From positions 1-32,916 of IMG/VR virus record IMGVR_UViG_3300037861_000124: 32,916 nucleotides of DNA; one strand, given 5' to 3'. The position numbers and the translations under genes are program-made. This document shows positions 3,472 to 32,882 of the stretch, one piece after another. Below the pieces are notes generated by a model. It did no database searches. It worked only from the letters and a program-made list of their open reading frames with translations, and had not been told where the DNA came from. Positions within the stretch are counted from its first letter, which is position 1, and each line of letters starts with the position of its first letter. This DNA is from a virus.

Positions 3472-4157
3472 TAGACACCTGCCGGATTTGTGAGGTACCC
3501 CGGAGCCCTACCAATCGCTACGTAGAAAGCTCTCCATGTATCCGTAGGGGGTTCACCCCCTACGGTCTCATCGTAATAAGTCGCAGTAAGTTCTGTCTTA
3601 TAGCGCAGAGTGAAGAACGCACTAGTTACATCTTCCAAAGTTAGAGAGATGTTTTTTTCATTCCACTGCTCAATAGCATTCCCACCTGCTTCATAGTACA
3701 GTTCATCGTTGTCATAGATCGTAGCAATGACAGTGGGTGTTGTGCCAGGATCGAAGGTTGTCGGATGCTCTGCGCCCTGCCCAAAAAGGGCAGCAACGCG
3801 GTAGCCAATAGCAGCCACCTCATCCGACAACCAGATAGGAAAAGAGGGGGTAACCCCAGCAATCATCTTGACCCCTGGTGTCTGAGCCAAGACCCACTGA
3901 ACACCCCGCTCACCCGCGACGTTGAGTTGAGCGTCAGTAATGATAGAATCACCAAGTGAACCATCTCGATGATCGTGTCCTGAGTCTACATCCCAGGCTA
4001 TCAGATGCTCGGGTACCCCTGCGTTATCTGCAAAGTTCACATTCCCCAGTTTCGTAGTGTTAATAAGGGTGCGCAAAGCATCGTAAGTAGCCTGCGTATT
4101 TGCCTTAACAATAGTATGACCACGAGTGATAGGGGTCGTGATTGAAATCCTTGGCAT
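3471..4157 (-). CDS. GHxH-motif virion protein, paralogue 2
   Basis: This is a 228-residue protein starting at ATG 4157 (TAATG overlap). An N-terminal segment with RTLINTTKLGNVNFADN leads into SGHDHRDGSLGDS, then a C-terminal domain of beta strands (TPTVIATIYDNDELYYE, SAFFTLRYKTELTATYY). The motif and layout match the flanking two genes, which supports a triplicated gene family. A perfect 10-bp hairpin (3542-3565) lies in the C-terminal coding part, over VGGEPPTD. A structural or appendage role is inferred from gene position and the HxH motif. Confidence 0.8.
   Translation of the reverse strand: MPRISITTPITRGHTIVKANTQATYDALRTLINTTKLGNVNFADNAGVPEHLIAWDVDSGHDHRDGSLGDSIITDAQLNVAGERGVQWVLAQTPGVKMIAGVTPSFPIWLSDEVAAIGYRVAALFGQGAEHPTTFDPGTTPTVIATIYDNDELYYEAGGNAIEQWNEKNISLTLEDVTSAFFTLRYKTELTATYYDETVGGEPPTDTWRAFYVAIGRAPGYLTNPAGV
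3542..3565. repeat. Perfect 10-bp inverted repeat inside a coding sequence
   Basis: CCGTAGGGGG, a 4-nt loop (TTCA), then the exact reverse complement. It lies inside the paralogue 2 gene, far from its ends, and no T-run follows on either strand, so it is not a standard terminator. Confidence 0.85.
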
Positions 4158-4879
4158 TACGCCTCCGGACGTGCCTGGACAATTAGAGTCCAGTGCAGAA
4201 ACATTCCATCAGTAGACTCAATAGGAGCCTCCGATCCACGGAACTGAATAGTTGCTCTCAGATACATGGCAAAGATACCGTTCGTAGGACCGTACTGAAC
4301 AACTCCCAAGTTCTGAACGGTAACGTAACCCAACAGCGCAGGATTCAGAACTTGAAGAGAACCGAATGCTCTCGCAGTTACCTGGTCAGTCCGCCAGAAC
4401 TTGGGTAACCGAACAGGGTCATAAGGAATGTCGATGTAGACAGAGCGTCGTCCAGAGGTACTATCTGTGCTCTTCGGCCAAGACACCTGGATAGGAACTA
4501 CCCCGTGATATGTAAAGACAGGTCGATCATTGCTGGGGAACATGTACGCCCCAAATGACCGACGCTCTGTTACCCTACGATCCACCGACCCAATACTGAG
4601 GAAAGAACTATCCACCCCATTATGCCCATGGGTATGCCCCACGTTAGGCTGCACGTCACGAATGAACTCAGGGAACTGGATCTTCTTCTCATCAATAGAG
4701 ACGTTATCCCAATCTAGGTTCTGCGCAGTCATCCCCCCATTTACTGCTGTGTAGAGACGACGAAAATTCCCACCAATCAGATCAGCGTCAATAAGATCCT
4801 CTTTGTCCGTCCAGGACGCTGCTACCTCTGTCTGATAAGGAGTTCCGCTGGGCATCTCTGGCCTAACGATTACTAGCAC
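4157..4879 (-). CDS. GHxH-motif virion protein, paralogue 3 (GTG start)
   Basis: This is a 240-residue protein. The chosen start is GTG at 4879: it overlaps the upstream stop as TAGTG and has GGAGG six bases before it. The next in-frame ATG lies eight codons later and lacks as good a site. Residues 40-100 include LYTAVNGGMTAQNLDWDN and then VGHTHGHNGVDSS, matching the GHxH-G motif of the two genes downstream. The C-terminal half is beta-rich (VYIDIPYDPV, IFAMYLRATIQFRG, HWTLIVQARPEA). It lies directly after the propeller-type tail gene, which fits a tail or receptor-binding accessory. The function is inferred. Confidence 0.8.
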   Translation of the reverse strand: MLVIVRPEMPSGTPYQTEVAASWTDKEDLIDADLIGGNFRRLYTAVNGGMTAQNLDWDNVSIDEKKIQFPEFIRDVQPNVGHTHGHNGVDSSFLSIGSVDRRVTERRSFGAYMFPSNDRPVFTYHGVVPIQVSWPKSTDSTSGRRSVYIDIPYDPVRLPKFWRTDQVTARAFGSLQVLNPALLGYVTVQNLGVVQYGPTNGIFAMYLRATIQFRGSEAPIESTDGMFLHWTLIVQARPEA

Positions 4880-6933
4880 TACTGGCCTCCATATCCAGGG
4901 GGATCGAGCACGGCACTGGATCCCTCGGGGTCCTGAGAATCATAGACAAACACGAGCTTCTGTAGGATGAGAGGACCAACAACTGCTTGGAACCGAATAT
5001 AGAAAGTAAAACTTCTTCCTGCAATCTGATGAAAGTTAACCCTTGCATGATTAAGTTTCATTGCACCTGTCTTGGTGAAAGATGCCCACGCTCCTCCCCA
5101 CTTTGCTGTATCCTTAGGAGTCACATACGTAGCGCCACCAGACGTTGGTGTATTCGTAGGCTCAACAGTTACAGTCTGACTAAATGTAGGAGCGTAAGTA
5201 GCCTCCTCATCATCAATTTGTGGAGCCTCACGGTGCACTACAACTGCCAACACGCACTCTTTCAATGCTTCATAGTGGATATCCACGTACTTTAGAGTTT
5301 TATCCACATCAGGAAGATCAAAGTCTAGTGCTTTGAAAACCATACGAGGAATTGTCCTCTTATGATCATCATAGTCGTAGTCAGGGCTAAGGAGCATGAT
5401 GTACCGATTTGGGTGATTCACACTCTTTGATGTATAGATCAACGCTTGATCAGAACGGAAGGGAGTCGAAAGATAAAAAGATCCCTTATTCTTTACTCCC
5501 CACTCTCTAGAACGAAGATCACAGACCCACGTTCGATTGGGGAAATTACCCTCATCCGTAACAGCTAACCCTGAAATGTTCATGCACAGGTAATAGAAGT
5601 CTCCCGTCACCGCTCCTACGGCAGTGTCCGTAGGGACACTGCCTGGAGCTTCAATACGGAGGACTGCATCAATAGGCTGGGAGATGTCCTCATAGGAAGA
5701 ACCATTGAAGAACTTCACCCCCTGTGTAGTGAGGAGAACTACCCCATTCTTATAAGGCTGCAATGACCGAGGAGCCGCGCATCCTAGGTAAGAACTCACC
5801 AAATCAAGTGAGTAGTCCTCCGCACTGAACCCAGAAATACGGAACGTCTTCTCTCGACAGAAGACATAGAGGGTCCCATTGATGACCCAGAGTTGAACAA
5901 TATCTTCACCTTCACCGATCACACCTGTGTCGATCTCATACTGAGGGGGCCAGACATCAGGGTAGAACACCTTGGAAACAGAGATGCGGTTACGTTTGCC
6001 GTAACCGCCCACAGCAAACATCTGATCGTTCCAACTACGAAGCAACCGGAAGTTCGCTGGTTTTCCATTGTCCAAAGGAATGCCGTAGCCAAGGTCAGAG
6101 TCTCTGGCTGAATCCACGTAACTACTCACACCCCTGGGAACACGAGCGACAAACTGGAGATCCTTTCCCAAGACAGAATCTCGATAGAGATTCACGTGGG
6201 TGACAGAGGAGTCCACTCGAGTCCAATCAATGATGAAAGTCGGGGAGAACCCTGTAGGTCCCCCTGCTTCACCTTCACTTTGCTCAGGGGTTGTGCTGAT
6301 GTTGCGGAACCGGAAGGAAGACGCAGGACTCTCCCCCCACTTAGACAGCGTAGTCACTGCATAGGTAAAGGACGCTCCGGGAACAGAGGAGAGTGCTGCG
6401 ATAGGCTTACGGTCGATCGCAAGGAAGTCAGAGAAGAAAACGGGGACGCCTGTAAATTTCGCCGTGAGCCATCCTGTGTCATCAAGGGTGATTCGCAGTG
6501 GAGGATTGACTCCATCAGCGTAATACAAGGCGTCACCATAAGGTTCAAAGCAGCCAAAGGAGAACTCATCCCCCACAGGGATACTTCCAGTAGTTTCCTC
6601 AGTCATGAGGTACTGCCAGTACCACCCACCACTACCACGTTGAAGGTTAAAGATCCGACCTTCATTAGCAATAAGGATGTAATCCCCGCCTCGTGGTGGG
6701 GTCCAGTAGTACATTGCGTTCACATTACTCCACTGGCTAAACATAATAGATGAAGGACCACCAAGCCCTCTCAACTCCCCATAGGGAGTAGGAATGGTGT
6801 CATCTACATAACCGGAAGAGTAGCTGTACCCAGGGTTATACTCGTCGTTAAGACCTTGCCCCTGAAACCGGGTTGGGGAGATCCCTTGGTAATAACCCCG
6901 GAACTGTTTGATTTCATAACGACGAATAGGCAT
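4879..6933 (-). CDS. Large beta-rich tail protein, probable propeller / nozzle-type
   Basis: This 684-residue protein has an ATG at 6933 in a TAATG overlap. Repeated four-stranded-looking units fill residues 60-480: DYILIANEGRIFNLQ, ALYYADGVNPPLRI, DQMFAVGGYGKRNRISVS, GTLYVFCREKTFRISG, NGVVLLTTQGVKFFNGSSY, RTWVCDLRSREWGV. This is the pattern expected of a beta-propeller. In podoviruses such proteins (P22 gp10 hub/stabilisation protein, T7 gp12 nozzle) attach below the adaptor. Here two adaptor-like genes lie directly upstream in the operon, which supports the reading. The last 150 residues look like a separate beta-sandwich. The family call rests on pattern and context, not on a search. Confidence 0.65.
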   Translation of the reverse strand: MPIRRYEIKQFRGYYQGISPTRFQGQGLNDEYNPGYSYSSGYVDDTIPTPYGELRGLGGPSSIMFSQWSNVNAMYYWTPPRGGDYILIANEGRIFNLQRGSGGWYWQYLMTEETTGSIPVGDEFSFGCFEPYGDALYYADGVNPPLRITLDDTGWLTAKFTGVPVFFSDFLAIDRKPIAALSSVPGASFTYAVTTLSKWGESPASSFRFRNISTTPEQSEGEAGGPTGFSPTFIIDWTRVDSSVTHVNLYRDSVLGKDLQFVARVPRGVSSYVDSARDSDLGYGIPLDNGKPANFRLLRSWNDQMFAVGGYGKRNRISVSKVFYPDVWPPQYEIDTGVIGEGEDIVQLWVINGTLYVFCREKTFRISGFSAEDYSLDLVSSYLGCAAPRSLQPYKNGVVLLTTQGVKFFNGSSYEDISQPIDAVLRIEAPGSVPTDTAVGAVTGDFYYLCMNISGLAVTDEGNFPNRTWVCDLRSREWGVKNKGSFYLSTPFRSDQALIYTSKSVNHPNRYIMLLSPDYDYDDHKRTIPRMVFKALDFDLPDVDKTLKYVDIHYEALKECVLAVVVHREAPQIDDEEATYAPTFSQTVTVEPTNTPTSGGATYVTPKDTAKWGGAWASFTKTGAMKLNHARVNFHQIAGRSFTFYIRFQAVVGPLILQKLVFVYDSQDPEGSSAVLDPPGYGGQ
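5620..5643. repeat. Perfect 10-bp inverted repeat inside the propeller gene
   Basis: GGCAGTGTCC, loop GTAG, exact reverse complement. Five more flanking bases (GCTCC upstream, GGAGC downstream) could extend pairing across a small internal loop. No T-run follows on the coding strand. Confidence 0.85.
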
Positions 6934-7682
6934 TAGGAGATCGTCCCCGGAAGTCTAGGCACCTGGAGGAACGGCATGTCCAACTCCCCTGGCCTGATTC
7001 CCTTCAGTGTAGTGTTCTGATCCGGAGCACGATTCATCAGAAGAGTCATAGCCTGAAGCCACAGCTCATACTCTGCTTTGTAGGCATCCGCCAACTCAGG
7101 ACGAACCATGGGAGCACCCTTCGCACATGTCCCCCAAACAAGCACATGCTCAAAGTGATATGGCAACCACACGTAATCCGTACCTGCGGGAGTATCATCC
7201 ATCGCATTACCCGTGTGCCAGAGCCACGCACTGTAGGCTTCCGTTACCTGAGGCCAGTACCTAACGGATCTCCGACCATCATATTCCGTCCCATCGAGAG
7301 AACTCGTAGAGACTGTCCAGTACCGGGGTTCGGTAGCTGTGGCTACCGAACCACCCGTTCCACGAGACTTATAGAGACGATCGAAATCCACTGGCTCCCG
7401 ATATTCAGGCACAATGGTGTTTCCACCAGAGCGAGTCATAACGAGAAGGATAGGGCTGCCTAGATAGGCTTCCTGATCTGCGGATAGGTCCACACCATTG
7501 GAGTCATCAGCAACAGTAAGGGGTCCCATGACATCGTGGAAAACGGGGTTAATGGAGCGGGACACCATATCATTGAAAGTCAACCCAATCCAATCAAAGA
7601 TACGACGATCCATGTTGCTCACACCGAGAAGATCCGCAGCCTCGTCAGCAATCTCACTTACGATTGTCCGTGCGTTAGCCAT
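6933..7682 (-). CDS. Head-tail adaptor-like protein A
   Basis: This 249-residue protein has an ATG at 7682 in a TAATG overlap. It begins with a helix-rich segment (IVSEIADEAADLLGVSN, IFDWIGLTFNDMVSRSINP), then a beta-rich middle, and ends with helices (YHFEHVLVWGTCAKGAPMV, ADAYKAEYELWLQAMTLLM). Late helices with a conserved aromatic-G-A/C-x-K-G stretch are typical of podovirus adaptor (tail tubular A / gp4-type) proteins that dock under the portal. A second protein of similar length and shape lies immediately upstream. An adaptor role fits the position between capsid genes and the propeller protein; it is inferred. Confidence 0.6.
   Translation of the reverse strand: MANARTIVSEIADEAADLLGVSNMDRRIFDWIGLTFNDMVSRSINPVFHDVMGPLTVADDSNGVDLSADQEAYLGSPILLVMTRSGGNTIVPEYREPVDFDRLYKSRGTGGSVATATEPRYWTVSTSSLDGTEYDGRRSVRYWPQVTEAYSAWLWHTGNAMDDTPAGTDYVWLPYHFEHVLVWGTCAKGAPMVRPELADAYKAEYELWLQAMTLLMNRAPDQNTTLKGIRPGELDMPFLQVPRLPGTIS
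7327..7352. repeat. Perfect 11-bp inverted repeat inside adaptor gene A
   Basis: GGTTCGGTAGC, loop TGTG, exact reverse complement. It lies mid-gene over the codons of VATATEPRYW and has no T-run on the coding strand. Confidence 0.85.
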
Positions 7683-8392: not shown

Positions 8393-8404
8393 CAGCCTTG
8401 CTCC

Positions 8405-8954: not shown

Positions 8955-9347
8955 TTAGTAGTAGAAGAAGCAGACGGTGATGTAGACTGTGCCGCTGGAA
9001 CCGGACCGGTTACCATAGAGATTTTCTCCCCTGCCCAGGACCAACTCAGAGCCCAGCAGATTGCGAGTAACGACAGAGCCCCCACGCACCGGACCCTTGT
9101 GTTTTGCGTCACCAGACGCGCCAATTCGGACATAAACCACTTCATCTGCACTATCCCCGTTTCCGATTTCTAGGTGTGTTACGACGACTTGGTGACTTTC
9201 GTTCCCCGTCACCAGCAGTGTGTTCCCGCTTGTCGTCAACTCCACTGTCGTTGCCGACTCCTCGGCTTGGGGCCGAGGAGTCAGCCATGCTGTTCCCCTC
9301 CCCAACTGGGCTCTCCGTTGGGAGGACTCTGTTGGCTGGCCCGTCAT
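8955..9347 (-). CDS. Small beta-rich capsid- or tail-associated protein
   Basis: A 130-residue protein whose ATG (9347) overlaps the glycosyltransferase stop as ATGA. Residues 1-35 look disordered (TESSQRRAQLGRGTAWLTP), and the rest is a run of beta strands (TVELTTSGNTLLVTG, HQVVVTHLEIGN, EVVYVRIGAS) ending SSGTVYITVCFFYY. That layout is common in small phage head or tail surface proteins. A perfect 11-bp hairpin lies within its N-terminal codons. A different frame also stays open across this N terminus (9151-9492), so the exact start is less certain than the body of the gene. Confidence 0.7.
   Translation of the reverse strand: MTGQPTESSQRRAQLGRGTAWLTPRPQAEESATTVELTTSGNTLLVTGNESHQVVVTHLEIGNGDSADEVVYVRIGASGDAKHKGPVRGGSVVTRNLLGSELVLGRGENLYGNRSGSSGTVYITVCFFYY
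9256..9282. repeat. Perfect 11-bp inverted repeat near the start of the small beta-rich gene
   Basis: GACTCCTCGGC, loop TTGGG, exact reverse complement. It lies about 65 bases into the 8955-9347 gene on the coding strand, with no T-run after it. It could affect translation of this gene or RNA processing between it and the glycosyltransferase. Confidence 0.85.
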
Positions 9348-10488: not shown

Positions 10489-11064
10489 TCACAGTGCCCG
10501 GATATGCCCCTTGCAATACCGGACAGCAGCATCAGTCATTGTCACCAAAGTAGTTCCAACGTCCCCATAACCGTTCTGGGTGTAGAACCCATCAACCGGA
10601 ACGATGAAGCCACCACCATAATCGGACCAATCTCCAAACGTGACTACACCCATGTAGCCAGCATCCGTAGCTGCTCCTTCATTTGTCCCATTGCCGTAAA
10701 TGCCAACAGGAAGCAGCACAATGTTCGTAAGCTCATTAGCCCCCGTGCCTGCCACTGTTACAAAATTCCCACTGGTTGTGCCCTGCACCAAGATAAAATC
10801 ACACCAGCCCCACACCTGCACAGAACCAAAGTCTTCAGAAAGGATCGGGCGCTTCGCAGCAACACCAGCAAAATTGCCAGGGTGTGGGGGGTAGTTCGTG
10901 TCTGTGCCCGCTAGTGTGACCTGATACCCACGACCCGCAGGGGTAGTCCCACCTGTGTAGTGGAAGAATGCGGGGGCTCCCGTAGGAATGTCTTCTGAGT
11001 GTGAGTTATAAACGGACATGAAGACTTGTTCGGGGGAGCTTTGATTGATGCGAGTGAAAAGCAT
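10489..11064 (-). CDS. Capsid-associated protein, paralogue 3 of 3
   Basis: A 191-residue protein. Start chosen at ATG 11064 (MLFTRINQ) because GAGG lies five bases before it; a GTG two codons earlier falls inside that ribosome site. It shares ordered motifs with the next two genes: SPEQVF near the N terminus, NFAGVAAKRP, GSVQVWGWCDFILV, GYMGVV, and a C-terminal KGHIRAL. Located three genes downstream of the major capsid gene, it is likely a head decoration, vertex or fibre protein. No enzyme motif was seen. It is the most diverged copy at its C terminus. Confidence 0.75.
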   Translation of the reverse strand: MLFTRINQSSPEQVFMSVYNSHSEDIPTGAPAFFHYTGGTTPAGRGYQVTLAGTDTNYPPHPGNFAGVAAKRPILSEDFGSVQVWGWCDFILVQGTTSGNFVTVAGTGANELTNIVLLPVGIYGNGTNEGAATDAGYMGVVTFGDWSDYGGGFIVPVDGFYTQNGYGDVGTTLVTMTDAAVRYCKGHIRAL

Positions 11065-11071
11065 CGTCACC

Positions 11072-11635
11072 TCAAAGACAGCGTATGAACGCCTTGGTAG
11101 TTCCTGTGCTCGTATTCGCCAACGTACCGTAAGTAGTAGATCCAGAGGGAATCACTGCATCCACAATCTGAATAACTGGAGAATACCCCTGCCTATTTGT
11201 CGCATTAGCTATAAGAACAACAGCAAAGAGACCAGGAGATGTGGAGTAATACTGCTGGTCAATAGGTTCCAAGTAAAGATTTTGAAGGTCTGCATCAGCA
11301 ATTATTTGGCTCGTGATGGAATTCCAGAGGGCAGCGAAGCCGTTAGTTTGCCCCCCAACGACGATGTGTTCGCAGTGTCCCCATATCTGTATGGGACCGA
11401 ACCCTCCAGGGTAGATTTTCCCCCCAGAGACCACGCCAGCGAGACCATTCCGGACTGCACCGTCAGTCCAGTGATCCGCAGCGAACTTGACCGAGTAGCC
11501 GTTGTTCGATCCACCGTTGTTCGTTCGATAGTCATAGTACACTCCATAACCAGAAGTCATTACAGTGGAACCTGCATTCTTAGCAAGAATGAAGATTTTA
11601 TCAGGGGATTGAGTGGATACCTTTTGCCAGAACAT
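11072..11635 (-). CDS. Capsid-associated protein, paralogue 2 of 3
   Basis: This 187-residue protein, ATG 11635 (MFWQKVSTQSPDKIF), has the same motif order as its neighbours: SPDKIF, GLAGVVSGGK, GPIQIWGHCEHIVV, GLFAVVLIAN, and C-terminal KAFIRCL. A terminator-like hairpin lies nine bases upstream of its start, between it and paralogue 1, so expression of this gene and those after it may be lowered relative to the capsid protein. A decoration or minor capsid role is inferred from position and family duplication. Confidence 0.75.
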   Translation of the reverse strand: MFWQKVSTQSPDKIFILAKNAGSTVMTSGYGVYYDYRTNNGGSNNGYSVKFAADHWTDGAVRNGLAGVVSGGKIYPGGFGPIQIWGHCEHIVVGGQTNGFAALWNSITSQIIADADLQNLYLEPIDQQYYSTSPGLFAVVLIANATNRQGYSPVIQIVDAVIPSGSTTYGTLANTSTGTTKAFIRCL

Positions 11636-11639
11636 TGAG

Positions 11640-11670
11640 AAAACGGGAGCGGTCTTTGGGACCGCTCCCG
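11640..11670 (-). terminator. Rho-independent terminator or attenuator between capsid-associated paralogues
   Basis: On the minus strand an 11-bp perfect stem (CGGGAGCGGTC with a 5-nt loop) is followed at once by TTTTCTC, then the next gene's ATG. The stem spans 11644-11670. Because it lies within a run of co-directional virion genes it most likely acts as a partial terminator that keeps the major capsid transcript abundant and reduces readthrough into later genes. Confidence 0.7.
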
Positions 11671-11683
11671 CACCTCCTTCCGG

Positions 11684-12265
11684 TTAGCCAAGACAGCGAA
11701 TGAAAGCCTTCGCAGTCGTGGTATCCGTGGTTGCGTCAGTCGTGGTAGTCGAAGCCACCGTAGCATTCTGCTCCACAGGGAGCAGATAGTTACGAGCGAG
11801 CTTCAGCGGGGTATGACCTGTAGTGATCGTCGAACCCTGACCCTGCACAAGCGCCATGTACCCAGGCTGAGCACCAGCGTTAGCCGTGCCGTACCCGAAA
11901 GGCACAAGGATCTTGTTCGTGATCGAGGCAGCATTGAACGCTGCCTGGAATCCACCAACAAACCCGTTGACGGATGCATTCTTCACGAGCACAGACGGAT
12001 GATACCCAAACACCTGCATAGAACCGTACTCTGCAACTCCAAGCGTTTTCCCCTGAGGAATGACACCTGCAAAGTTATCGGGTCCGAGTCCATTGGCAGT
12101 TGCAACCAGACTAATTGCTTCTACCCAGTTCGCCACACCATCGTCGTTAGCAGGATCAAGATCCCACTTACAACCTTCACCAGCAACCAACTCTGATGCC
12201 CCAGAGTTATAGACAGAGAAGTAGATGTTTTCCGGAGAGTCTTTGTTGATACCTTGCCATTGCAT
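11684..12265 (-). CDS. Capsid-associated protein, paralogue 1 of 3
   Basis: This 193-residue protein, ATG 12265 (MQWQGINKDSPENIY), has GGGAGG nine bases upstream. Motifs shared with the two genes that follow: SPENIYFSVYN, NFAGVIPQGK, GSMQVFGYHPSVLV, GYMALV, KAFIRCLG. The C-terminal stretch before KAFIRCLG is Thr/Asp-rich and looks flexible. It is the first gene after the major capsid protein and the only copy upstream of the internal terminator, so it may be the most highly expressed. A head decoration protein is the simplest explanation. Confidence 0.75.
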   Translation of the reverse strand: MQWQGINKDSPENIYFSVYNSGASELVAGEGCKWDLDPANDDGVANWVEAISLVATANGLGPDNFAGVIPQGKTLGVAEYGSMQVFGYHPSVLVKNASVNGFVGGFQAAFNAASITNKILVPFGYGTANAGAQPGYMALVQGQGSTITTGHTPLKLARNYLLPVEQNATVASTTTTDATTDTTTAKAFIRCLG

Positions 12266-17681: not shown

Positions 17682-19621
17682 TACTGTCTCCCTGTCTCCA
17701 TACGGGGATTAGGTGCCCCCTGACCCACGGCTCCCCCATTCTGAATCTCACTGAGCATGGCCCCCATATTAGGGGTCATCGGTCCGTTCTGCATGTTCTG
17801 GCGCTGGCCCGGAGGCTGTTGGCCTCCGGGACCGCCCATTCCTGGAGGCGGACCCCCCTGCATTGGTGGAGGAGCCATGGGAAGAATAAAGTCCTCTGGT
17901 GCTTCCAAGTCAATCATCTCTGCAAGCCGAACAATGACTGCTCTCACATTCACAATGGGGAGGTTCGTCATCGGGTCTACAAGTTGACCTGTAAGGTTGA
18001 GAAACTTGAGCATCTGCTGGACCTGGACTTCCTTGGACTTATAACCAGAGGAACCCACACGAACCTTTACATCTGCCTGCATCCGAAGGATCTCATCCGC
18101 ATGTTCCTGCCACACCATTGCAGTCTCAGGATCCGTCACAAAAGCTGCATAGTTCCGATCGAGATAGGCAACATTTAGCTGGTCCAACTTTGTAACAATA
18201 TTCTCCACAAAAGCAGTCACAAGCCCCAAACGATCATCATCACGCCTGGAAGACTGAGCTTCCATAAACGATGCTTCTGTTGCGGTCTTCTCTCCTACAG
18301 ACTGTCCCTGACGCTGCGCAGTAACTCCTGAAAGCTGATCCATTTCTCTCCGAGTATCAGAGAGGTAGGCATAGATGTCACCCGACATAGGAGCATCAGG
18401 GATCGGGAAGATACTGGGACCTTTGTTCGTAGACTGACTCTGCACAACTGTGCCGTCTGCGGGAGACGTGAGCTTCGTCATCTCTTCTGGATCAAGATTT
18501 CCCTTAGCTGTCTCGTACTTACGGTTGAACCTCTTCACATGGTTGAAACGCATGGATGTCACAAGGTTCATGGAGAGGGCGGGATTGTGCCAAGTCTTCA
18601 CATCCGAAAGACCAAAGGGATGATCGGGATCAAGGTTGAAAGTCAGAATCTCAAAGGGGAATCCATTGATACAATCGTAAGGCCAATCATCCTCAATGAG
18701 ATACTCTTTGTCTGAACCACCATGCATCATGGTGTGCTCATCTATAACGAGATACCGCTTGTTCTGAAGATCCCAAATCTCATAGAGCATCACGGCTGCA
18801 TCGTGCTCTTTATCGGAACTATAGTTTCTTCCGCTATTGCGCACCTCATTGATAGCCTTCTCATCAGTAATGCGACGAGTACCTTTCATGCCGTCAACAA
18901 CGGATCTCTTGTAACGAGAATCCTCTTTGACATCCTCCAGAGGACGCAGGACACAATGAACAACCCAACGAGCTTCCTCAAGATGAGTAGCCGCTGGGTC
19001 TACATAGAAGTGGGCTGGGGAGATCCTAATGGAGAAAGGGTTCTGCTCAGAGACCCTTTGGTTAGGCTCGTAGCTTGCGTCTTCTTCCTTCTTCTCTGCT
19101 GCCTCTTCATCTTCCAACATAGCGAGCAGCGCGTCCACATCCAACTCACCTAGGGACTTCTCACCTCCCAAAGCAAGAGAATCCATGCGGGGCTTATAGC
19201 CCAACTTCACAACACCGTAGCCTGCCACTAGCGCGTCAAAGATGACTCGACGTGCCTCATCTTGAAACTTCATCTTTTCAACTTGATACTGGAGGAGCTT
19301 CTGACGTGCCTTGGCGAATTTGTACTTCATCAAGACCATCATCTTCCCCTGCTCCCCATACATATCGTAGCCACCGCTAAAGCGGGGGGAGACCAAGATA
19401 TCGGGATTACGAAAGTAGACGGAAGAAAGGATGTTGCGGATTGTGGAGAAGTGATAATTGATGTAGACAGCCAAACCCGCTTCAAGAGCTTCTGCACTCT
19501 CAAGATCCGTGCGGTAGAAATCAAGGTAGGTTCGCCACTCGGACAAGCGATCCTGCATCCTCCGCTCTGCCTCTGTGATCTCCCTGCCCCAGTCAGAGTA
19601 CGTGTTCATTGAAGAACTCAT
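17681..19621 (-). CDS. Portal protein
   Basis: This 646-residue protein has its ATG (19621) immediately after the large terminase stop. Features fit podovirus portals: an N-terminal helical stretch (EAERRMQDRLSEWRTYLDFY), a long helical wing (KMMVLMKYKFAKARQKLLQY) with acidic DEEAAEKKEED insertion, ISPAHFYVDPAATHLEEARW, SMRFNHVKRFNRKYE, the RREMDQLSGVTAQRQGQS region and a later helical stem. The C-terminal 80 residues are Pro/Gly/Met-rich (APPPMQGGPPPGMGGPGG) and look disordered. It forms the dodecameric DNA channel at one vertex and docks the terminase. Confidence 0.85.
   Translation of the reverse strand: MSSSMNTYSDWGREITEAERRMQDRLSEWRTYLDFYRTDLESAEALEAGLAVYINYHFSTIRNILSSVYFRNPDILVSPRFSGGYDMYGEQGKMMVLMKYKFAKARQKLLQYQVEKMKFQDEARRVIFDALVAGYGVVKLGYKPRMDSLALGGEKSLGELDVDALLAMLEDEEAAEKKEEDASYEPNQRVSEQNPFSIRISPAHFYVDPAATHLEEARWVVHCVLRPLEDVKEDSRYKRSVVDGMKGTRRITDEKAINEVRNSGRNYSSDKEHDAAVMLYEIWDLQNKRYLVIDEHTMMHGGSDKEYLIEDDWPYDCINGFPFEILTFNLDPDHPFGLSDVKTWHNPALSMNLVTSMRFNHVKRFNRKYETAKGNLDPEEMTKLTSPADGTVVQSQSTNKGPSIFPIPDAPMSGDIYAYLSDTRREMDQLSGVTAQRQGQSVGEKTATEASFMEAQSSRRDDDRLGLVTAFVENIVTKLDQLNVAYLDRNYAAFVTDPETAMVWQEHADEILRMQADVKVRVGSSGYKSKEVQVQQMLKFLNLTGQLVDPMTNLPIVNVRAVIVRLAEMIDLEAPEDFILPMAPPPMQGGPPPGMGGPGGQQPPGQRQNMQNGPMTPNMGAMLSEIQNGGAVGQGAPNPRMETGRQ
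17808..17830. repeat. Perfect 9-bp inverted repeat in the 3' part of the portal gene
   Basis: CCCGGAGGC, loop TGTTG, exact reverse complement, within the Gly/Pro-rich C-terminal codons. Repetitive GGN/CCN codons could create such a repeat without selection, so it is weaker evidence than the 10-11 bp cases. Confidence 0.7.
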
Positions 19622-22103: not shown

Positions 22104-22178
22104 TAGGTAGACGGGATTTTCTTTAGAGAAGGCACCAAGTGGGCGGTAGTGGGCGTATGAAGGGCACATGCGGAATCC

Positions 22179-22363
22179 GGGGGGCGTATTCTGGTAGGCG
22201 AACGATCGAAGGGGGGTGGGGGGATTATGATATACCGACCTGTCCCACGCTGGGGGGGTGTGACCGCCTACCTCCACACCTCGATTCCCACAACGCTGCA
22301 TAAGGGGGGATTATGCTTCTAGGGTAGTGTGCATCATTGGGGGGAATAGGGAAACGTGGGGGG
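22179..22363 (+). repeat. G-tract cluster in the divergent control region
   Basis: Seven runs of six or seven G lie on the plus strand at 22179, 22211, 22218, 22252, 22304, 22339 and 22358. Two are part of an exact repeat GGGGGGATTATG (22218-22229 and 22304-22315). The tracts could fold into G-quadruplexes. The surrounding 22104-22575 has no convincing gene; open frames here, for example 22157-22303 plus and several minus frames, have compositions dictated by the tracts. From 22364 to 22575 the plus strand is pyrimidine-rich and then AT-rich around 22478-22490 (a possible -10), ending at the ribosome site of the next gene. An origin, packaging or regulatory role is possible. Confidence 0.6.
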
Positions 22364-22742: not shown

Positions 22743-22766
22743 AGGAGCCGCGCGGTTGCGGCTCCT
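22743..22766 (+). terminator. Hairpin between the first two rightward genes
   Basis: A perfect 9-bp GC-rich stem with a 6-nt loop (arms 22743-22751 and 22758-22766) follows the membrane-protein stop by 17 bases. The downstream sequence CCACTTCTCACC is pyrimidine-rich without a real T-run, so it may be a weak terminator or an RNA-stability element. Confidence 0.45.
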
Positions 22767-23304: not shown

Positions 23305-23756
23305 CACGTCCGATCCATCAACGGTTCCACGTCATTCTGACCAAGTCTGAGCCGGACGATATCGATACAATGGACATATACCGATACCGCATTGTTGACC
23401 TAGAGGAAGACAGAATGGTAGGGGGGCACGCGTACTACCGTAAATCCGACGCACAACGGGAAGCCGCTTATCTCGAATTCGACAGAGCTACACCAGAGTT
23501 CCTCAAGGTAGCAATCCGCACAAGTGCATATGAGACTGGAAAACGAGACGACAATCAACTCCACATTGTCCGTGTCCCTTGTATTAACGCGCGTACATAC
23601 AATCGTCTCTTCCGTATTCTCCAAGCCCTACCTACCAATGTTATTGGGCACGGTATGCCCGGAGTAGCACTATTCACGGGAGACACGGGAGACGCTAACC
23701 CATTGGGTACTGGGCAACAGTGGGCAATCGAGCTAGTAACAGAGGAAGCCAAATAA
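23298..23756 (+). CDS. Hypothetical early protein
   Basis: This 152-residue protein (MLARPIHQRFHVILT) overlaps the previous stop. Mixed alpha/beta sequence with an acidic N-terminal third (KSEPDDIDTMDIYRYRIVD) and a segment NARTYNRLFRILQALPTN followed by a Gly-rich turn region (GHGMPGVALFTGDTGD). No catalytic motif or family is recognised. Its stop overlaps the next start as TAATG. Confidence 0.7.
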   Translation: MLARPIHQRFHVILTKSEPDDIDTMDIYRYRIVDLEEDRMVGGHAYYRKSDAQREAAYLEFDRATPEFLKVAIRTSAYETGKRDDNQLHIVRVPCINARTYNRLFRILQALPTNVIGHGMPGVALFTGDTGDANPLGTGQQWAIELVTEEAK

Positions 23757-24004
23757 TGTACACTACGAAAACGGAACTTGAGACAGAGGGAACCCCTTAC
23801 GATACCGATATCCCTCAGGATGTATGGAAACGCATGCGTACTGCTTCGGGCACCAATCCCTACGGACATATCGTTGTCGCCTACCCCGAAGGATTCGTCT
23901 TTGGGACTCTTACAGCTACCGATAGGACAGGGGAGAAGATCCTAGCGCACTATCTTGCTGATGCGGCTCGTGAGAGGGCATCCAAAGACTACTCAAGGTC
24001 CTAA
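23756..24004 (+). CDS. Small hypothetical early protein
   Basis: An 82-residue protein (MYTTKTELETEGTPYDTD); ATG 23756 overlaps the upstream stop as TAATG, which decides the start over a GTG 12 codons earlier. It has a central beta segment (GHIVVAYPEGFVFGTLTA) and a C-terminal helix (EKILAHYLADAARERASKD). Last gene before a strong terminator, so 23023-24004 form a three-gene unit. No family is recognised. Confidence 0.7.
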   Translation: MYTTKTELETEGTPYDTDIPQDVWKRMRTASGTNPYGHIVVAYPEGFVFGTLTATDRTGEKILAHYLADAARERASKDYSRS

Positions 24005-24018: not shown

Positions 24019-24048
24019 GGGGAGTGCTTTACAGCACTCCCCTTCCTT
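24019..24048 (+). terminator. Rho-independent terminator after the 23.0-24.0 kb genes
   Basis: A perfect 10-bp stem GGGGAGTGCT, loop TTAC, reverse complement, followed by TTCCTT. It lies 14 bases after the stop of the last gene of the unit. The T-run is interrupted, so termination may be partial. Confidence 0.65.
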
Positions 24049-25452: not shown

Positions 25453-25478
25453 GCAGCCGCCCCCTAAGGGGCGGCTGC
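25453..25478 (+). promoter_or_regulatory. Perfect 11-bp hairpin at a likely transcript 5' end
   Basis: GCAGCCGCCCC, loop CTAA, exact reverse complement, then AAG. It begins about 15 bases after the putative -10 box, so the RNA would start with this stable stem, which can shield a 5' end from decay. No T-run follows. A similar stem, also opening GCAGCC and ending GGCTGCAA, occurs at 26260-26286. Confidence 0.6.
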
Positions 25479-26259: not shown

Positions 26260-26286
26260 GCAGCCCGACCTTGTAGGTCGGGCTGC
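26260..26286 (+). terminator. Perfect 11-bp hairpin after the zinc-finger-like gene
   Basis: GCAGCCCGACC, loop TTGTA, exact reverse complement, followed by AAAA rather than T. It is probably a weak terminator, a processing site or an RNA 3'-end stabiliser. It resembles the hairpin at 25453-25478 in its outer six bases. Confidence 0.55.
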
Positions 26287-27615: not shown

Positions 27616-27953
27616 GCGAGAAGACGAGCGCGGAGATTTACGCCACGATGAAGCGGAACGTATCACAGTACGATTCAAGGTACGAACTCTATGACGAGAT
27701 CGACGCCCTCCTCGCCGCCAAGGAGCGCGAGGTGCGGGCGGAGTTTGCGGGACCGATGCCCGACCCCGCCAAGGCCGACGTGTGCGCGAACTGCGGGGCG
27801 CTGCAGTGGGACTTTCATTGCGTGGCGCTTGATTTCGATCACATATATTCGCCGCGGTTCTGCCGCCATTGCGGGGTGCAGGAGAGCATCAACACAAAAA
27901 CCCACCGATGGACGGTTGATTACCCTGGCAAGGGCGCGGAGGTGACGGAATGA
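27612..27953 (+). CDS. Zinc-ribbon hypothetical protein, paralogue B
   Basis: A 113-residue protein (MSEKTSAEIYATMKRN). The N-terminal helix matches its neighbour, but the C-terminal half adds two CxxC pairs (C58-C61 in CANC, C84-C87 in CRHC) that would form a zinc ribbon. ATGA overlap with neighbours indicates one transcript. A nucleic-acid-binding role is possible. Confidence 0.65.
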   Translation: MSEKTSAEIYATMKRNVSQYDSRYELYDEIDALLAAKEREVRAEFAGPMPDPAKADVCANCGALQWDFHCVALDFDHIYSPRFCRHCGVQESINTKTHRWTVDYPGKGAEVTE

Positions 27954-29065
27954 GCAACCTGCTGGCATTCCCCTACAACGACCCTGCGGGCTACGAGCAC
28001 CTGGGTGAGATCGAGTGCATCCGCTGCATCACCGGGGCGCTCTCCCAGTACGAGAGGCTCCAGGCGGAGCACCCGGGACTCGGGGTCCAGATCAGCGTTC
28101 AGCTGGCCGAGTTCCTCCGGGAGGAGGATACGCGGCCATCGCAGTGCGACAACTCCATCCGGCACCGGCTCGCGATTCTGGCACAGGAGGCTTTCGGGCT
28201 CGTGATCGACGAGCGCGACGACGAGGCCTGGTGGGGGCTGGGAGCGGCACGCCTCGACGATGTGGGGCCGCTCGACGAGTACCTGTACGAGGCCGGGCGA
28301 CTCATCGGATCGCGGGCAACCAAAGATCTCCAGATCGCCGATACCGTCCAGATCGACACAGCCGCCTGGACTATGCCTGAAAAGCGGGCTCTGCTCGGGC
28401 TCACTCTCACGGGAACCGATCTCATCGACTGGATCGACGCCAGGTGCTCGGCATTCATCGAAGGTTACCGGGAGGGAGGAGCCTCAATTCAAGTCGTCCT
28501 GAACTCACTGGGCCCGAACGGCTCCACGTCGCTTCGGCTCGATCGCGTCGCCGCAGGCTACTCGGCAGAGAACTGGGGGACCCGGCACTACGGCCGATTC
28601 AAGTACCCCAGTGTCTACGAGATGATGCTTGCAGAGTGGCGCACGGTCTCCCAGTTCCTCACGAATCCGCCGGCCAACGTGTGGGGCTTTTCGATGAATC
28701 CGATCCCGCTGTCGTGGCGTGGTGGGCCGTTCGACTGGATGTGGATGGACTACATGCGGACCCACGCGGGGCTCTTCGTGGCGCTGCGGGACGGCGTGGC
28801 GCGGATGAGGAACGTGCCCATGTACTTCCACACGGGCTACGAGCGGTCGGGGAAGAAGGACACTGCCTTCTGGATTGGTGACTATCCGATCGTTGCTGGC
28901 CACCTCATCGGCCAGAGCTGGGACCGTGTCCGTGTTCCTCTGCGAGAGGAGGAGTTCGTGGTGATCTCACGAGAGACCAGCAAGAGGCGGCGGCTCACGC
29001 TCACGATCGGGGTCGACCCGGCAGACCAGCAGATGCGGATCGTCGATCGCGAGGTGACCGCATGA
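27950..29065 (+). CDS. Large hypothetical protein in a G+C-rich insert
   Basis: A 371-residue protein (MSNLLAFPYNDPAGYEH), ATGA overlap with the previous gene. The first 150 residues are helical with a charged stretch (FREEDTRP, ERDDEAWWGLGAARLDD); the central part has the NPPANVWGFSMNPIPL and FDWMWMDYMRTHAGLFVAL blocks. The C-terminal 80 residues are beta-rich (KDTAFWIGDYPIVAGHLIG, RRLTLTIGVDPAD). Codons are visibly more G+C-rich than in the virion and replication genes. I recognise no family or catalytic motif. As a cargo-like gene in an early region it could be anti-defence or regulatory, but that is a guess. Confidence 0.7.
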   Translation: MSNLLAFPYNDPAGYEHLGEIECIRCITGALSQYERLQAEHPGLGVQISVQLAEFLREEDTRPSQCDNSIRHRLAILAQEAFGLVIDERDDEAWWGLGAARLDDVGPLDEYLYEAGRLIGSRATKDLQIADTVQIDTAAWTMPEKRALLGLTLTGTDLIDWIDARCSAFIEGYREGGASIQVVLNSLGPNGSTSLRLDRVAAGYSAENWGTRHYGRFKYPSVYEMMLAEWRTVSQFLTNPPANVWGFSMNPIPLSWRGGPFDWMWMDYMRTHAGLFVALRDGVARMRNVPMYFHTGYERSGKKDTAFWIGDYPIVAGHLIGQSWDRVRVPLREEEFVVISRETSKRRRLTLTIGVDPADQQMRIVDREVTA

Positions 29066-29116
29066 GTACGGAGAAGACTGGCGGAAGGAGCAGGACGATG
29101 AGAAGGAGAGAGACGC

Positions 29117-29329: not shown

Positions 29330-29344
29330 GAGATGGTGAGAGCA

Positions 29345-29470
29345 ATGGATCTCATGGATCTTGAAGAACTCTACGAGGAAGCCATCATCGCTTACTACGA
29401 GTCTGGCACTTATTACGAACTGGACGTAGACATGGGCGATTGGTGTGATGAATGGGTGGAGGAAAGATAA
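29345..29470 (+). CDS. Tiny acidic protein upstream of the primase
   Basis: A 41-codon frame (MDLMDLEELYEEAIIAYYES) very rich in Asp and Glu and containing Trp (GDWCDEWVEE). Its stop overlaps the primase start as TAATG, and its last codons carry the GGAGG ribosome site for the primase. Small acidic peptides of this kind can be DNA mimics or coupling leaders. No further assignment is possible. Confidence 0.65.
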   Translation: MDLMDLEELYEEAIIAYYESGTYYELDVDMGDWCDEWVEER

Positions 29471-30270
29471 TGCAGCGATCAGTTTTCTACCAGATGGTAG
29501 GTGAGCTTGTTTCTTCTAATGACAGTGAAGAATGCTTCATCTGTCTTGGGTGTGGAAAGCCAAAGCTCTACAAGAACATTGTCTCAGGCAGGTACATCTG
29601 CCATGTCTGTGGGTATGCAGGACAAGCAGAAACCAATGAGGATAGACCCATCTATATTCCTTCCAGTCAGCGACACATGCCAGCTTGTGCACCAATTTAT
29701 CGGGAGTTTTCTCATCCATCTCTAGCGTCCCCACCTAACATGGGGAGGTTACAGGGTAGAATCACTCATGATAATGCGAAGGAGTTAGGGTTCTGCGGGT
29801 CTGGTGTAAAGATGTTCCTCCAGAACACTCTTTGTGGATTCCATTCCTACAACCCAAACAATCCCTACCGGTACATAACAGAGGGGAAGCGGGGGGTTGT
29901 TACATACGAGAACAAGGACGGTGACAGCGTCTACCGTAAATACACTCCCTCAGGGGAGATTATAGATAATCAAGTCTTTCTCTTTGAGGGTCTCTTTGAT
30001 TGGGCGACTGCTGCTACTCGCGTTCATGGCACGAGCATCTTCCTCGCTGGAAACACCTGCACTCCCGCACAAATTGATGAGTTGTTCTGCTGCACGACAC
30101 CTGAAGACATCATTCACGTTTGCTTTGACTCGGACAAGCCGGGCTTTGCGGCCCGGCTTGCCCTGACTCTTAGTTCCATCCGTAACGTGAGAATGACGCT
30201 ACCACCAGAGGGGTACAAAGACTGGGATGAGGCGATCCAGGTAGGATACGCATTAGGACTGGGGGACTAA
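29470..30270 (+). CDS. Zinc-ribbon / TOPRIM primase-like protein
   Basis: This is a 266-residue protein; ATG 29470 overlaps the upstream stop as TAATG with GGAGG nine bases before. An N-terminal zinc ribbon (C25, C28, C44, C47) is followed by a TOPRIM-like region: FEGLFDWATA (Glu 173), the Asp pair in FDSDKPGFAARLA (D220, D222), then GYKDWDEAI. These are signatures of DnaG-type primases, as in T7 gp4. No helicase domain is attached and none lies beside it, so a separate helicase may lie outside the window. It would make RNA primers for the polymerase encoded four bases downstream. A strong hairpin (30135-30160) lies over the TOPRIM codons. Confidence 0.75.
   Translation: MQRSVFYQMVGELVSSNDSEECFICLGCGKPKLYKNIVSGRYICHVCGYAGQAETNEDRPIYIPSSQRHMPACAPIYREFSHPSLASPPNMGRLQGRITHDNAKELGFCGSGVKMFLQNTLCGFHSYNPNNPYRYITEGKRGVVTYENKDGDSVYRKYTPSGEIIDNQVFLFEGLFDWATAATRVHGTSIFLAGNTCTPAQIDELFCCTTPEDIIHVCFDSDKPGFAARLALTLSSIRNVRMTLPPEGYKDWDEAIQVGYALGLGD
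30135..30160. repeat. Perfect 10-bp inverted repeat over the primase TOPRIM motif
   Basis: CAAGCCGGGC, loop TTTGCG, exact reverse complement, encoding part of DSDKPGFAARLA. No T-run follows. Confidence 0.85.
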
Positions 30271-30273
30271 CCA

Positions 30274-32625
30274 ATGGGCTGCACCCTATGCAAGCTCCAC
30301 AAGACCTGCAAGTCAGTGTGCATTCCTGCTAAGAGCTTTGGGGAAAAGCCTGACATCATGGTCGTATTGGAAGCACCTGGAAAGGAAGACGATGACAACG
30401 CCACTGTTGCTAATGGAAGAGTTGCACAAACTCTTGTTCAAGTTCTCAGGGAACTCAATCTCTTGGAACGTGTCGTGCTCACAAACGCAGTCAAGTGCAC
30501 ATCTCCAGTTGGAAATTCACCTTCCCTTGACATCCTCAGAAGATGCCGAGTGCATCTCGACGCTGAACTCGAAAGATATAAACCCTCTTTCGTCATACTC
30601 TGTGGAGCAAGCGCGGTTAAGTCATTCACTGGAAGAGCGGGTACAAGACTATCTGAGATCCGAGGCAGAAAGAACTGGGTCTGCCCCATCTCGGGGGCCG
30701 CAGTTCTAGCCACCTATCATCCGGCTGCGGCACTTGCGGTGCCGCAGCGATGGTATGACATCGTGGATGACCTGGAGAGAGTGACCAGTCGGGAGTTCTT
30801 TGACCCTCAGGTAGTCAACGTCACGCATGGGAGAGTGACCAAGTTACCCAAGACACTTGCTTTTGACCTGGAGACAATGGGTCTCGATGCTTGGGACCCT
30901 GCGAGGAAGATCATCTGTGTTGCATGGTCGAGTAAGAAGGACAAAGCCAGAGTCACCACAGACGTAGACGGGTTTGTCGAGGAGCTAAAGAAGGACCCCA
31001 CAAGAAAGCTCATCGGACACAATATTAAGTTCGAATTGCGATGGCTTCATACCAAATACGGCTATGAGCATCAAGGTCCTGTCTTCGATACAATGATCGC
31101 CCTACATCTCCTCCAGGAAGACGCACCTTCTAAGTCTCTCAAGTGGGCAGCGCATCAGTACACGGGACTTGGGAACTACGACAGTGCTGCGGCAGAGTTC
31201 CTCAAGTTCAATGGTCCCCACTGGGAAGTTGAGGGAGACTATGTTACCCGCACTCATGTCAATGGAGACCAGAAGTCCATAGCTCTCGTAGATTTCATGG
31301 AGTACTGCGGGTGGGATGCGGGGGCAACCTGGGAAATCTATGAGAAGTTCACTGCTGATTTGAAGAAGGACGGGTTGACTCAACTGATGATGGCAGAGAT
31401 GCAGATCCTCCAGGCTGTGCATCGAATGGAGTGCAACGGGATGGAGGTGGACCCTAGCATTGCCAAGCGTCTTAGAGGGACGTATCTGAGGAAGAAGAGC
31501 ACGCTGAAGCGAGCAGTGATGAGGAAGATTGAGGCTATCACGGCACTACCTGATGGATTCAGTCTGGACTCTCCGCTCAAGCTAGGCAGTGTGCTCTTCG
31601 GGACGCTTGGCTTGCCTGTGATTTCTAGGACTAAGATGGGCAACCCTCAAGTCAATGAGGCTGTGCTCATGGAGTTGTCTACTCACCCCACATGGGGCAA
31701 GACGATCGCTAAGATTCTAGAATACCGCAAGTGTGGGAAGATCATCTCTACCTACCTGGACAACATGTTAGAGAGAAGGGATGAAGACAATCTCATCCAT
31801 GCGAACTACAAGATCCATGGAACACGCACGGGCAGGCTTTCCTGCACGGAACCCAATCTCCAGAACATCCCTCGGGATGCCAATGCTCCCATTAAGAAGG
31901 TGTTCATTGGAGGACAGGGGAGGAGCTTCATCCAGGCAGACTACTCTCAAATGGAGCTACGGGTAGGAGCCTTGCTTTCCCAGGACCGGAGGATGCTAAG
32001 CACGATCCGTGGAGGAGAGGACATCCATTCCCTTACGGCAGCCCTTCTCTTCGGCACAAACTTTACAAAAGAGCAACGAGCAGTTGCCAAGACGATTAAC
32101 TTCGGTATATTCTATGGTGCAGGTCCGAAGAAAGTCAGCGCCACTGGAGGGATGACGATCAAGGAAGCAGGGGCACTTATCCGTAACTGGTTTTCTGCTT
32201 ATCCTGGAGTGAAAGACTGGATTGCTGAACAGCACCAACTTCTCATGGACCAGGGTTACGTGTCCGACTTGTTTGGGAGAAAGAGACGGCTTCCCTTAGA
32301 AGTAGCTGCGGATCGACAGGAATACGCATCACTCATGAGGAAGGCAGCCAACATGCCCGTGCAGGGGACTGCTGCACAAATTACTAAGCTGGCTGTTGCT
32401 TACCTCACCGATATGAGATTCCGTGCTCCGTTCAACGTAGTGGGTAGTGTACACGACTCCATTCTCTGCACTACCTCTGTGAGATTTGAAGATCGTGCTG
32501 TTGTCACCATCCAGAAGGTAATGGAAGATGCACAAACCCTCTGCTGGCACTATGGATTCAAGGACATAGTGATTGATGTACCTACTCCAGTAGACATTGA
32601 CGTAGGTGAGAGTTGGGCTAGGTAG
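30274..32625 (+). CDS. Uracil-DNA glycosylase fused to family A DNA polymerase
   Basis: A 783-residue protein starting four bases after the primase stop. Residues 1-170 match a family-4 uracil-DNA glycosylase: LEAPGKED (32-39), TNAVKC (70-75) and YHPAAAL (148-154). Cysteines C3, C6, C75 and C91 have the spacing of the family's 4Fe-4S ligands. A 3'-5' exonuclease follows: DLE (198-200), GHNIKFE (248-254), D272 and YCGWD (344-348). The polymerase has motif A DYSQMELR (556-563), an O-helix R602, K606, F610, Y614 and motif C VHDS (726-729). All catalytic residues appear intact. It should replicate the genome with proofreading and perhaps remove or sense uracil. An N-terminal glycosylase-like domain has been noted on some other phage family A polymerases. 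Confidence 0.9.
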   Translation: MGCTLCKLHKTCKSVCIPAKSFGEKPDIMVVLEAPGKEDDDNATVANGRVAQTLVQVLRELNLLERVVLTNAVKCTSPVGNSPSLDILRRCRVHLDAELERYKPSFVILCGASAVKSFTGRAGTRLSEIRGRKNWVCPISGAAVLATYHPAAALAVPQRWYDIVDDLERVTSREFFDPQVVNVTHGRVTKLPKTLAFDLETMGLDAWDPARKIICVAWSSKKDKARVTTDVDGFVEELKKDPTRKLIGHNIKFELRWLHTKYGYEHQGPVFDTMIALHLLQEDAPSKSLKWAAHQYTGLGNYDSAAAEFLKFNGPHWEVEGDYVTRTHVNGDQKSIALVDFMEYCGWDAGATWEIYEKFTADLKKDGLTQLMMAEMQILQAVHRMECNGMEVDPSIAKRLRGTYLRKKSTLKRAVMRKIEAITALPDGFSLDSPLKLGSVLFGTLGLPVISRTKMGNPQVNEAVLMELSTHPTWGKTIAKILEYRKCGKIISTYLDNMLERRDEDNLIHANYKIHGTRTGRLSCTEPNLQNIPRDANAPIKKVFIGGQGRSFIQADYSQMELRVGALLSQDRRMLSTIRGGEDIHSLTAALLFGTNFTKEQRAVAKTINFGIFYGAGPKKVSATGGMTIKEAGALIRNWFSAYPGVKDWIAEQHQLLMDQGYVSDLFGRKRRLPLEVAADRQEYASLMRKAANMPVQGTAAQITKLAVAYLTDMRFRAPFNVVGSVHDSILCTTSVRFEDRAVVTIQKVMEDAQTLCWHYGFKDIVIDVPTPVDIDVGESWAR
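30724..30748. repeat. Perfect 10-bp inverted repeat at the end of the glycosylase domain
   Basis: GCTGCGGCAC, loop TTGCG, exact reverse complement, over AAALAVPQ. It lies just where the glycosylase motif YHPAAAL ends, before the linker to the exonuclease. No T-run follows. Confidence 0.85.
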
Positions 32626-32674
32626 TCTGGCCCATGTTGAAGGGGAATCCTCCCCGCGACGAAAGGAAAGTATA

Positions 32675-32842
32675 ATGGCTGGTAAGAAGAAGACGGCGGA
32701 ATCAGAAGTGGTGAAGAAGGTCCAGATTGGTGTGTCTCGGGAGGTCCGTGCCTCTCTCAAGCGCCTCTGTCTCGATCGCGAGATTGAGACGGGCGAGGCT
32801 GTTTCTCCTAGTACCATCATCGCTGAGATGCTTGGCCTTTAG
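32675..32842 (+). CDS. Small ribbon-helix-helix-like protein
   Basis: A 55-residue protein starting at ATG 32675 (MAGKKKTAESEVVKK), preceded by GGAAAG. The pattern KVQIGVSREVRASLKRLCLD then SPSTIIAEMLGL matches the strand-helix-helix layout of Arc/MetJ-type DNA-binding domains, which act as dimers and often repress their own operons. It follows the polymerase gene by 49 bases and could regulate the replication region. The Lys-rich N terminus may add DNA contacts. Confidence 0.6.
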   Translation: MAGKKKTAESEVVKKVQIGVSREVRASLKRLCLDREIETGEAVSPSTIIAEMLGL

Positions 32843-32855
32843 ATCCATACATGTG

Positions 32856-32882
32856 GGCAGCGCGGGGAGCACCCGCGCTGCC
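32856..32882 (+). terminator. Perfect 11-bp hairpin after the RHH-like gene
   Basis: GGCAGCGCGGG, loop GAGCA, exact reverse complement, 13 bases after the stop. The following bases (ATATGTCTC) hold only scattered T, so termination may be weak. The next gene starts 31 bases later. Confidence 0.55.

Follow-up and report, generated by a model that had tools for sequence, protein, structure and literature searches.

Perfect short hairpins across an uncultured phage lineage: a possible origin by replication template switching with partial retention by selection

How does a phage come to carry a perfect hairpin every few kilobases, about half of them inside genes, and are such hairpins kept once they have arisen? 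The question is raised by a 32,916-nt stretch of DNA (positions 1 to 32,916 of the IMG/VR virus record IMGVR_UViG_3300037861_000124; hereafter the window) from a tailed phage, in which the terminase, portal, major capsid and tail genes lie on the − strand and the early genes on the + strand. An exhaustive scan of the window for perfect inverted repeats with loops of 3–8 nt found 11 perfect stems of 10–12 bp with loops of 3–6 nt (Table 1). All eleven had been listed in an original prediction made from the sequence and were recovered at the same positions; the geometry given there, 10–11 bp with loops of 4–6 nt, holds for each of them except 26260–26286, which is corrected here to a 12-bp stem with a 3-nt loop. 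The five shorter stems of that list were also found, together with one that it had missed (5986–6008; 9 bp, 5-nt loop). When the window was shuffled so that the amino acids and codon set of every gene were preserved and the intergenic bases were permuted, stems of at least 10 bp with loops of 3–8 nt appeared at a mean of 0.20 per genome, against the 11 observed. The rough figure of 0.1–0.2 that had been estimated for random sequence was therefore right, the excess stands in the codon-preserving comparison that had been proposed for it, and chance and codon bias are ruled out as its source. The observation is thus confirmed as real.

The excess is narrowly defined, being restricted in the window to loops of 2–6 nt, with loops of 7–60 nt at the background level of the shuffles. 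Six of the 11 stems lie inside genes and the other five fall in the 6% of the window that is intergenic (P = 3e-4), typically 14–18 nt past a stop codon or just ahead of a start. The predicted RNA fold contains all 11, the z-scores ranging from −2.8 to −5.6. The stems are not due to chance and differ from one another, in keeping with the earlier view of a shared architecture rather than one copied repeat. A consensus loop was sought by eye, and although CAA/TTG recurs in several loops it is inconsistent both by gene sense and by genome strand; the lack of any visible consensus in stem or loop speaks against a sequence-specific binding protein, and none was seen that would mark the protein-recognition sites that had been among the functions suggested. 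Mobile palindromic elements, such as the Rickettsia palindromic elements and REP, were also considered and rejected, as the stems are unrelated and at most sites the homologues align with no gap.

The relatives of the window in IMG/VR (designated G002, G004, G005, G007, G008, G009 and G011) share its gene content and have terminases of approximately 48–54% identity, with G012 being more distant. A search of 85,000 genomes gave no provirus, and among named phages, where the terminase matches were only distant, no near relative was found. The density of perfect stems of at least 10 bp (loops 3–8 nt) is 3.3 per 10 kb in the window, 3.7 in G002, 1.7 in G004 and 1.1 in G005, compared with 0.23 in random IMG/VR loci at matched GC content, and the density in this uncultured family is some 15 times the usual rate. 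In the G007 and G008/G009/G011 loci it reaches 3.7–5.2 per 10 kb when loops of up to 12 nt are allowed. Homology-supported coding sequence alone, taken from six lineages, holds 37 stems where codon-preserving shuffles give 1.8. The loop length varies by lineage, at 3–6 nt in the window, with a mode of 5 in G002 and 6–9 nt in G004. The excess, in-gene stems included, is common to those IMG/VR relatives that have homologous capsids; among approximately 30 loci related through the polymerase only, most had 0–1 stems per 10 kb and the excess was absent from nearly all, and T7 has no perfect stem of 9 bp or more. A general property of phages is ruled out by these polymerase-only loci together with 120 random IMG/VR loci, T7 and three other phage records. 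Perfect stems of other kinds were seen in two further viral contigs. L066 (IMG/VR 3300033076_001357) is an unrelated high-GC contig with stems of 12–18 bp and loops of 3–5 nt, some with a common GAACGG sequence downstream, which are probably terminators, whilst L207 carries three copies of the stem GGGGGTAGGGG with the loop GTC, a repeated hairpin element.

The stems are also perfect to an unusual degree. Against the 11 perfect stems, the window has none of equivalent size interrupted by one mismatch or G-U pair, which is the opposite of the shuffles, where interrupted stems outnumber perfect ones. The same near all-or-nothing tendency is found in G002 and, less sharply, in G004 and G005; stems containing G-U are almost absent and are not commoner than those with A-C interruptions. 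Stems that are perfect rather than nearly so are what a single-step copying event would leave, and our tentative explanation, which we put slightly short of an even chance, is that these lineage-wide hairpins were born by template switching during replication and have been kept in part by selection. During synthesis of the strand with coding polarity, the 3′ end would fold back onto the sequence just copied, be extended for 10–20 nt on its own strand and then switch back, so that a single event would turn the downstream arm into an exact reverse-complement copy of the arm before it and leave a loop of 3–9 nt. Some of the hairpins born in this way would then be retained as very stable mRNA hairpins.

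We infer the template-switch origin with statistical support from a comparison of the two arms. Across 41 deduplicated in-gene hairpins, the protein segment encoded by the coding-sense 5′ arm is on average more conserved than that encoded by the 3′ arm (P = 0.005 relative to position-shifted windows, with a few homologues, two to five, per gene and gene boundaries taken from open reading frames, ORFs); an initial test on a smaller set of genomes gave no significant difference (P = 0.2). At the 5% level nine sites favour the 5′ arm and one the 3′ arm, whereas the controls show no bias, with 8 versus 8 for 7-bp stems and 2 versus 2 for 8-bp stems with long loops. The clear one-arm cases are the uracil-DNA glycosylase (UDG) domain of the window, residue 790 in G004, the portal of G005 and G007 and the polymerase of G007, in which the 5′ arm codes for the conserved YDAAAT and the 3′ arm for VAAAL, as opposed to VWKVL or IYKRM in relatives. 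At individual sites in the window, homologues conserve the 5′ arm of the hairpin at 5620 and mostly not its 3′ arm, at 30724 the 5′ arm is conserved and the 3′ arm is not, and the 3′ arm of the hairpin at 3542 lands in a gap of the G005 homologue.

The sign of the arm bias is the same for genes on either strand. The cumulative GC skew of the window has its minimum near 21–22 kb, at the divergent gene switch, which agrees with replication being co-directional with transcription; taken together, the common direction of the bias and the skew switch would fit an origin near 21–22 kb with the copied strand being of coding polarity to either side of it. The divergent intergenic region at 22140–22340, at the change in the sign of the skew, has many runs of at least six G on one strand and is a candidate origin or G-quadruplex region. 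Other observations weigh against an origin by template switching. The hairpins at 7327, at 30135 and at codon 321 of the tail gene tailB show no arm asymmetry, and that at 24604 in G007 has the opposite asymmetry at the DNA level. The 3′–5′ exonuclease domain of the polymerase looks intact, so that nothing evident would account for unusual switching, and G009 and G011, the only close pair of genomes, show retention of stems and not their birth. Retention at the level of sequence, beyond that of pairing, would moreover require selection.

A test had been proposed of whether relatives keep the stems through compensatory synonymous changes, and this is borne out at only a few sites, namely the place behind the capsid and decoration genes in seven lineages and tailB codon 321 in three. 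At most in-gene sites the opposite is seen, and the hairpins are lineage-specific: relatives at 30–50% protein identity align through the hairpin without gaps and keep the protein without the stem. The post-capsid place holds a hairpin in all seven lineages considered (the window at 11644, G002, G004, G005, G007, G008/G009/G011 and G012), with stems that differ between them. The codon-321 stem, GGGTAGCCTG...CAGGCTACCC, is identical in G004, G007 and G009/G011 in flanking DNA of 66–68% identity, and one pair further out G004 has A-T where G011 has C-G, with both changes synonymous; the stem sequence also occurs in three viral contigs that are not related, each time outside a homologue, which we estimate to be roughly as many as chance would give. 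In the window a different stem (5986) lies 24 nt upstream of the corresponding place. A portal stem near codon 152 is common to G005 and G007 at 70% local identity.

The pair G009/G011 is mosaic, being more than 99% identical in one half and 76–96% in the other, and so provides a good test of retention. Five hairpins of this one pair lie at local identities of 0.76–0.90 and have no stem changes where 17.2 would be expected from frame-matched shifted windows (joint empirical probability approximately 4.5e-6), with one loop changed; compensated pair changes were looked for in these stems and none was seen. As no stem has changed amid diverged DNA, stems, once present, are retained, a result that is established for a few sites.

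Table 1. Perfect hairpins of the window and the genes or gene borders in which they lie.
Position	Strand	Hairpin	Setting
3542..3565	−	10 bp, 4-nt loop	in gene 3471-4157 (tail/receptor-type protein), codes TVGGEPPTD
5620..5643	−	10 bp, 4-nt loop	in gene 4879-6933 (tail protein, tailB), codes GSVPTDTA
5986..6008	−	9 bp, 5-nt loop	in tailB gene 4879-6933, codons 309-316
7327..7352	−	11 bp, 4-nt loop	in gene 6933-7682, codes GSVATATEP
9256..9282	−	11 bp, 5-nt loop	near 5′ end of gene 8955-9347, residues 22-31
11644..11670	−	11 bp, 5-nt loop	between decoration-type genes 11684-12265 and 11072-11635
17808..17830	−	9 bp, 5-nt loop	in portal gene 17681-19621, variable C-terminal part
22743..22766	+	9 bp, 6-nt loop	18 nt past stop of small ORF
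24019..24042	+	10 bp, 4-nt loop	15 nt past stop of 23720-24004
25453..25478	+	11 bp, 4-nt loop	9 nt ahead of ORF start 25487
26260..26286	+	12 bp, 3-nt loop	18 nt ahead of ORF start 26304
30135..30160	+	10 bp, 6-nt loop	in Toprim-domain gene 29452-30270, over DxDKPG motif
30724..30748	+	10 bp, 5-nt loop	in UDG-DNA polymerase A gene 30274-32625, end of UDG domain (HPAAAL)
32856..32882	+	11 bp, 5-nt loop	14 nt past stop of 32606-32842

The hairpins have the stem and loop geometry of intrinsic terminators (GC-rich, approximately 7–12 bp, short loop) but mostly lack the U-tract: among the 11 stems of at least 10 bp only that at 26260 (− strand) matches a terminator scan, 11644 has a partial U-tract, TTTT on the gene strand, and the others have no U-tract. 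The absence of a T-run remarked on in the original prediction is accordingly true of most stems. Canonical terminators were rejected as an explanation, since their counts are no higher than in shuffles and almost none of the hairpins is listed by the scan; searches for known RNA families and tRNAs found none. Compared with bacterial rho-independent terminators and 3′ stem-loops (PMC1590033), the hairpins are alike in stem and loop size and in their concentration at the 3′ ends of genes, and differ in that most sites have no U-tract and half are inside coding sequence.

The hairpin at 11644 sits between a Shine-Dalgarno sequence, AAGGAGG, and the next ATG, which are 37 nt apart and would be approximately 10 nt apart if the hairpin were looped out; the predicted fold also pairs part of the Shine-Dalgarno sequence. 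In the split ribosome-binding site of T4 gene 25 a hairpin reduces the spacing from 27 to 11 nt (PMC3014915), and the T4 intercistronic hairpins and split sites (gene 25 and 38 leaders; PMC3014915) are like 11644 in geometry; the other hairpins of the window have no such geometry. Between the hairpin at 26260 and the ORF start that follows it there is a Shine-Dalgarno-like GGAGGG. We suggest that the hairpins would act as RNA, and that those between cistrons most probably serve to delimit transcripts or shield their ends, to bring about partial termination with no U-tract or, at 11644, to close a split ribosome-binding site; that those in genes may be elements of mRNA stability or pausing is only a guess. 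The RNA processing, stability or pausing proposed at the outset is possible for the retained stems and incomplete as an account of the whole, for which near all-or-nothing perfection and arm asymmetry point to a mutational origin.

Several other features of the genome were observed. The DNA polymerase A of the window (30274–32625) has an N-terminal UDG domain (Pfam UDG at residues 23–158, followed by exonuclease and polymerase), an arrangement that also aligns in G002, G004 and G005. Behind the capsid gene, at 10489–12265, lie three tandem paralogues of 193, 187 and 193 aa, probably decoration proteins, where G002 and G005 have a single copy. A CBM96-like protein and a calcineurin-like phosphoesterase are encoded between the scaffold and portal genes (14601–16564), and a homologue of neither was found in the relatives searched. 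The region 27950–29065 is a GC island (64% versus 52%) with a 371-aa ORF that has no PHROGs or Pfam match, and is probably a recent acquisition.

Parallels to an origin by template switching are found outside the phages. The coding palindromes of Nematomorpha mitochondria are perfect, scattered, gained and lost, without a near-perfect class and up to 284 bp in length, and the mechanisms put forward for them include template switching (PMC6649704). The phage genes likewise hold many perfect inverted repeats that are gained or lost between relatives with no excess of imperfect ones, and their hairpins may be a viral counterpart of these palindromes; they differ in having arms of 10–20 bp and loops of 3–9 nt in a clade of double-stranded DNA phages, and in being enriched between genes, having a conserved place behind the capsid gene and keeping stems unchanged while the sequence around them diverges. 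Template switching has also been described as making and maintaining, or repairing, perfect RNA stems (PMC8794818) and as rewriting the arms of inverted repeats in yeast coding genes (PMC8604942). As in those cases, the phage stems would have been made perfect in one step, the reverse complement of one arm taking the place of the other and giving clustered amino-acid changes. However, those studies reconstructed ancestors, of rRNA genes and of yeast strains, whereas the phage origin is proposed from asymmetry and perfection, and the density of hairpins in the phage is far higher.

That the hairpins are purely selected RNA elements of point-mutation origin only, either terminators without a U-tract or pause or processing hairpins, which the RNA polymerase or RNases of the host would recognise by shape, is possible but on balance doubtful. 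Their 10–12 bp stems and 3–6 nt loops are those of terminators, they are enriched between genes and placed 14–18 nt after stops, stems are conserved under divergence, and the post-capsid hairpin of seven lineages lies where T7 likewise has a terminator, after its capsid gene; yet half are in genes, where terminators would truncate messages, the T-run is missing after most, G-U stems are almost absent although selection on RNA tolerates G-U, and the direction of the arm asymmetry would have no explanation. The asymmetry, binary perfection, scattered positions and gain and loss between lineages would all be accommodated if switching and repeat conversion kept making and repairing repeats without function, as proposed for the mitochondria of Nematomorpha (PMC6649704). 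We nevertheless consider a neutral by-product improbable, as conversion preserves pairing and not sequence, whilst the stem sequences of G009/G011 are unchanged with no compensated pair seen, and neither intergenic enrichment nor the conserved post-capsid place would be expected.

Strict Watson-Crick pairing, which serves both strands equally and is independent of gene orientation, could also reflect elements that act as DNA, that is cruciforms or single-strand hairpins which a phage protein recognises when replication is initiated, DNA is packaged or genes are transcribed. This is very unlikely, given that inspection showed no consensus in stem or loop and that the in-gene positions are mostly not conserved between lineages. 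The hairpin promoters of phage N4 are an example of such elements, but their hairpins are shorter than the stems of the window, which counts against this reading; N4-type promoters have a conserved short hairpin sequence upstream of genes, and the window stems have no common sequence and are half in genes. Ordinary causes, namely chance, codon bias, mobile palindromic inserts or an artefact of assembly, are in the main refuted and can be given almost no weight: high-GC phages do carry perfect-stem terminators, as in the control locus L066, but the codon-preserving shuffles, the gap-free aligned protein segments underlying most hairpins, the mutual differences between stems and the repetition of the pattern in independently assembled contigs from several metagenomes all stand against them. 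Birth by template switching with partial retention can also be put more strongly, such that the replication mode of the clade writes perfect hairpins at a high rate and these have been co-opted genome-wide, in and between genes, as structured mRNA elements; this we regard as rather unlikely.

Where perfect RNA stems come from has long been a puzzle. The leading answer is template switching, for which the examples to date are mainly from rRNA genes, yeast and mitochondria. A compact phage clade with a perfect stem every 2–4 kb, half of them in conserved genes, would offer a natural laboratory for this question, in which a series of close strains could reveal the birth, fixation and loss of hairpins. 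The retained stems, such as those at tail codon 321 and behind the capsid gene, would be direct targets for determining the role of a stable hairpin in a phage message. Should the stronger version prove true, the clade would be a viral example of regulatory RNA structure being supplied without pause by a mutational mechanism.

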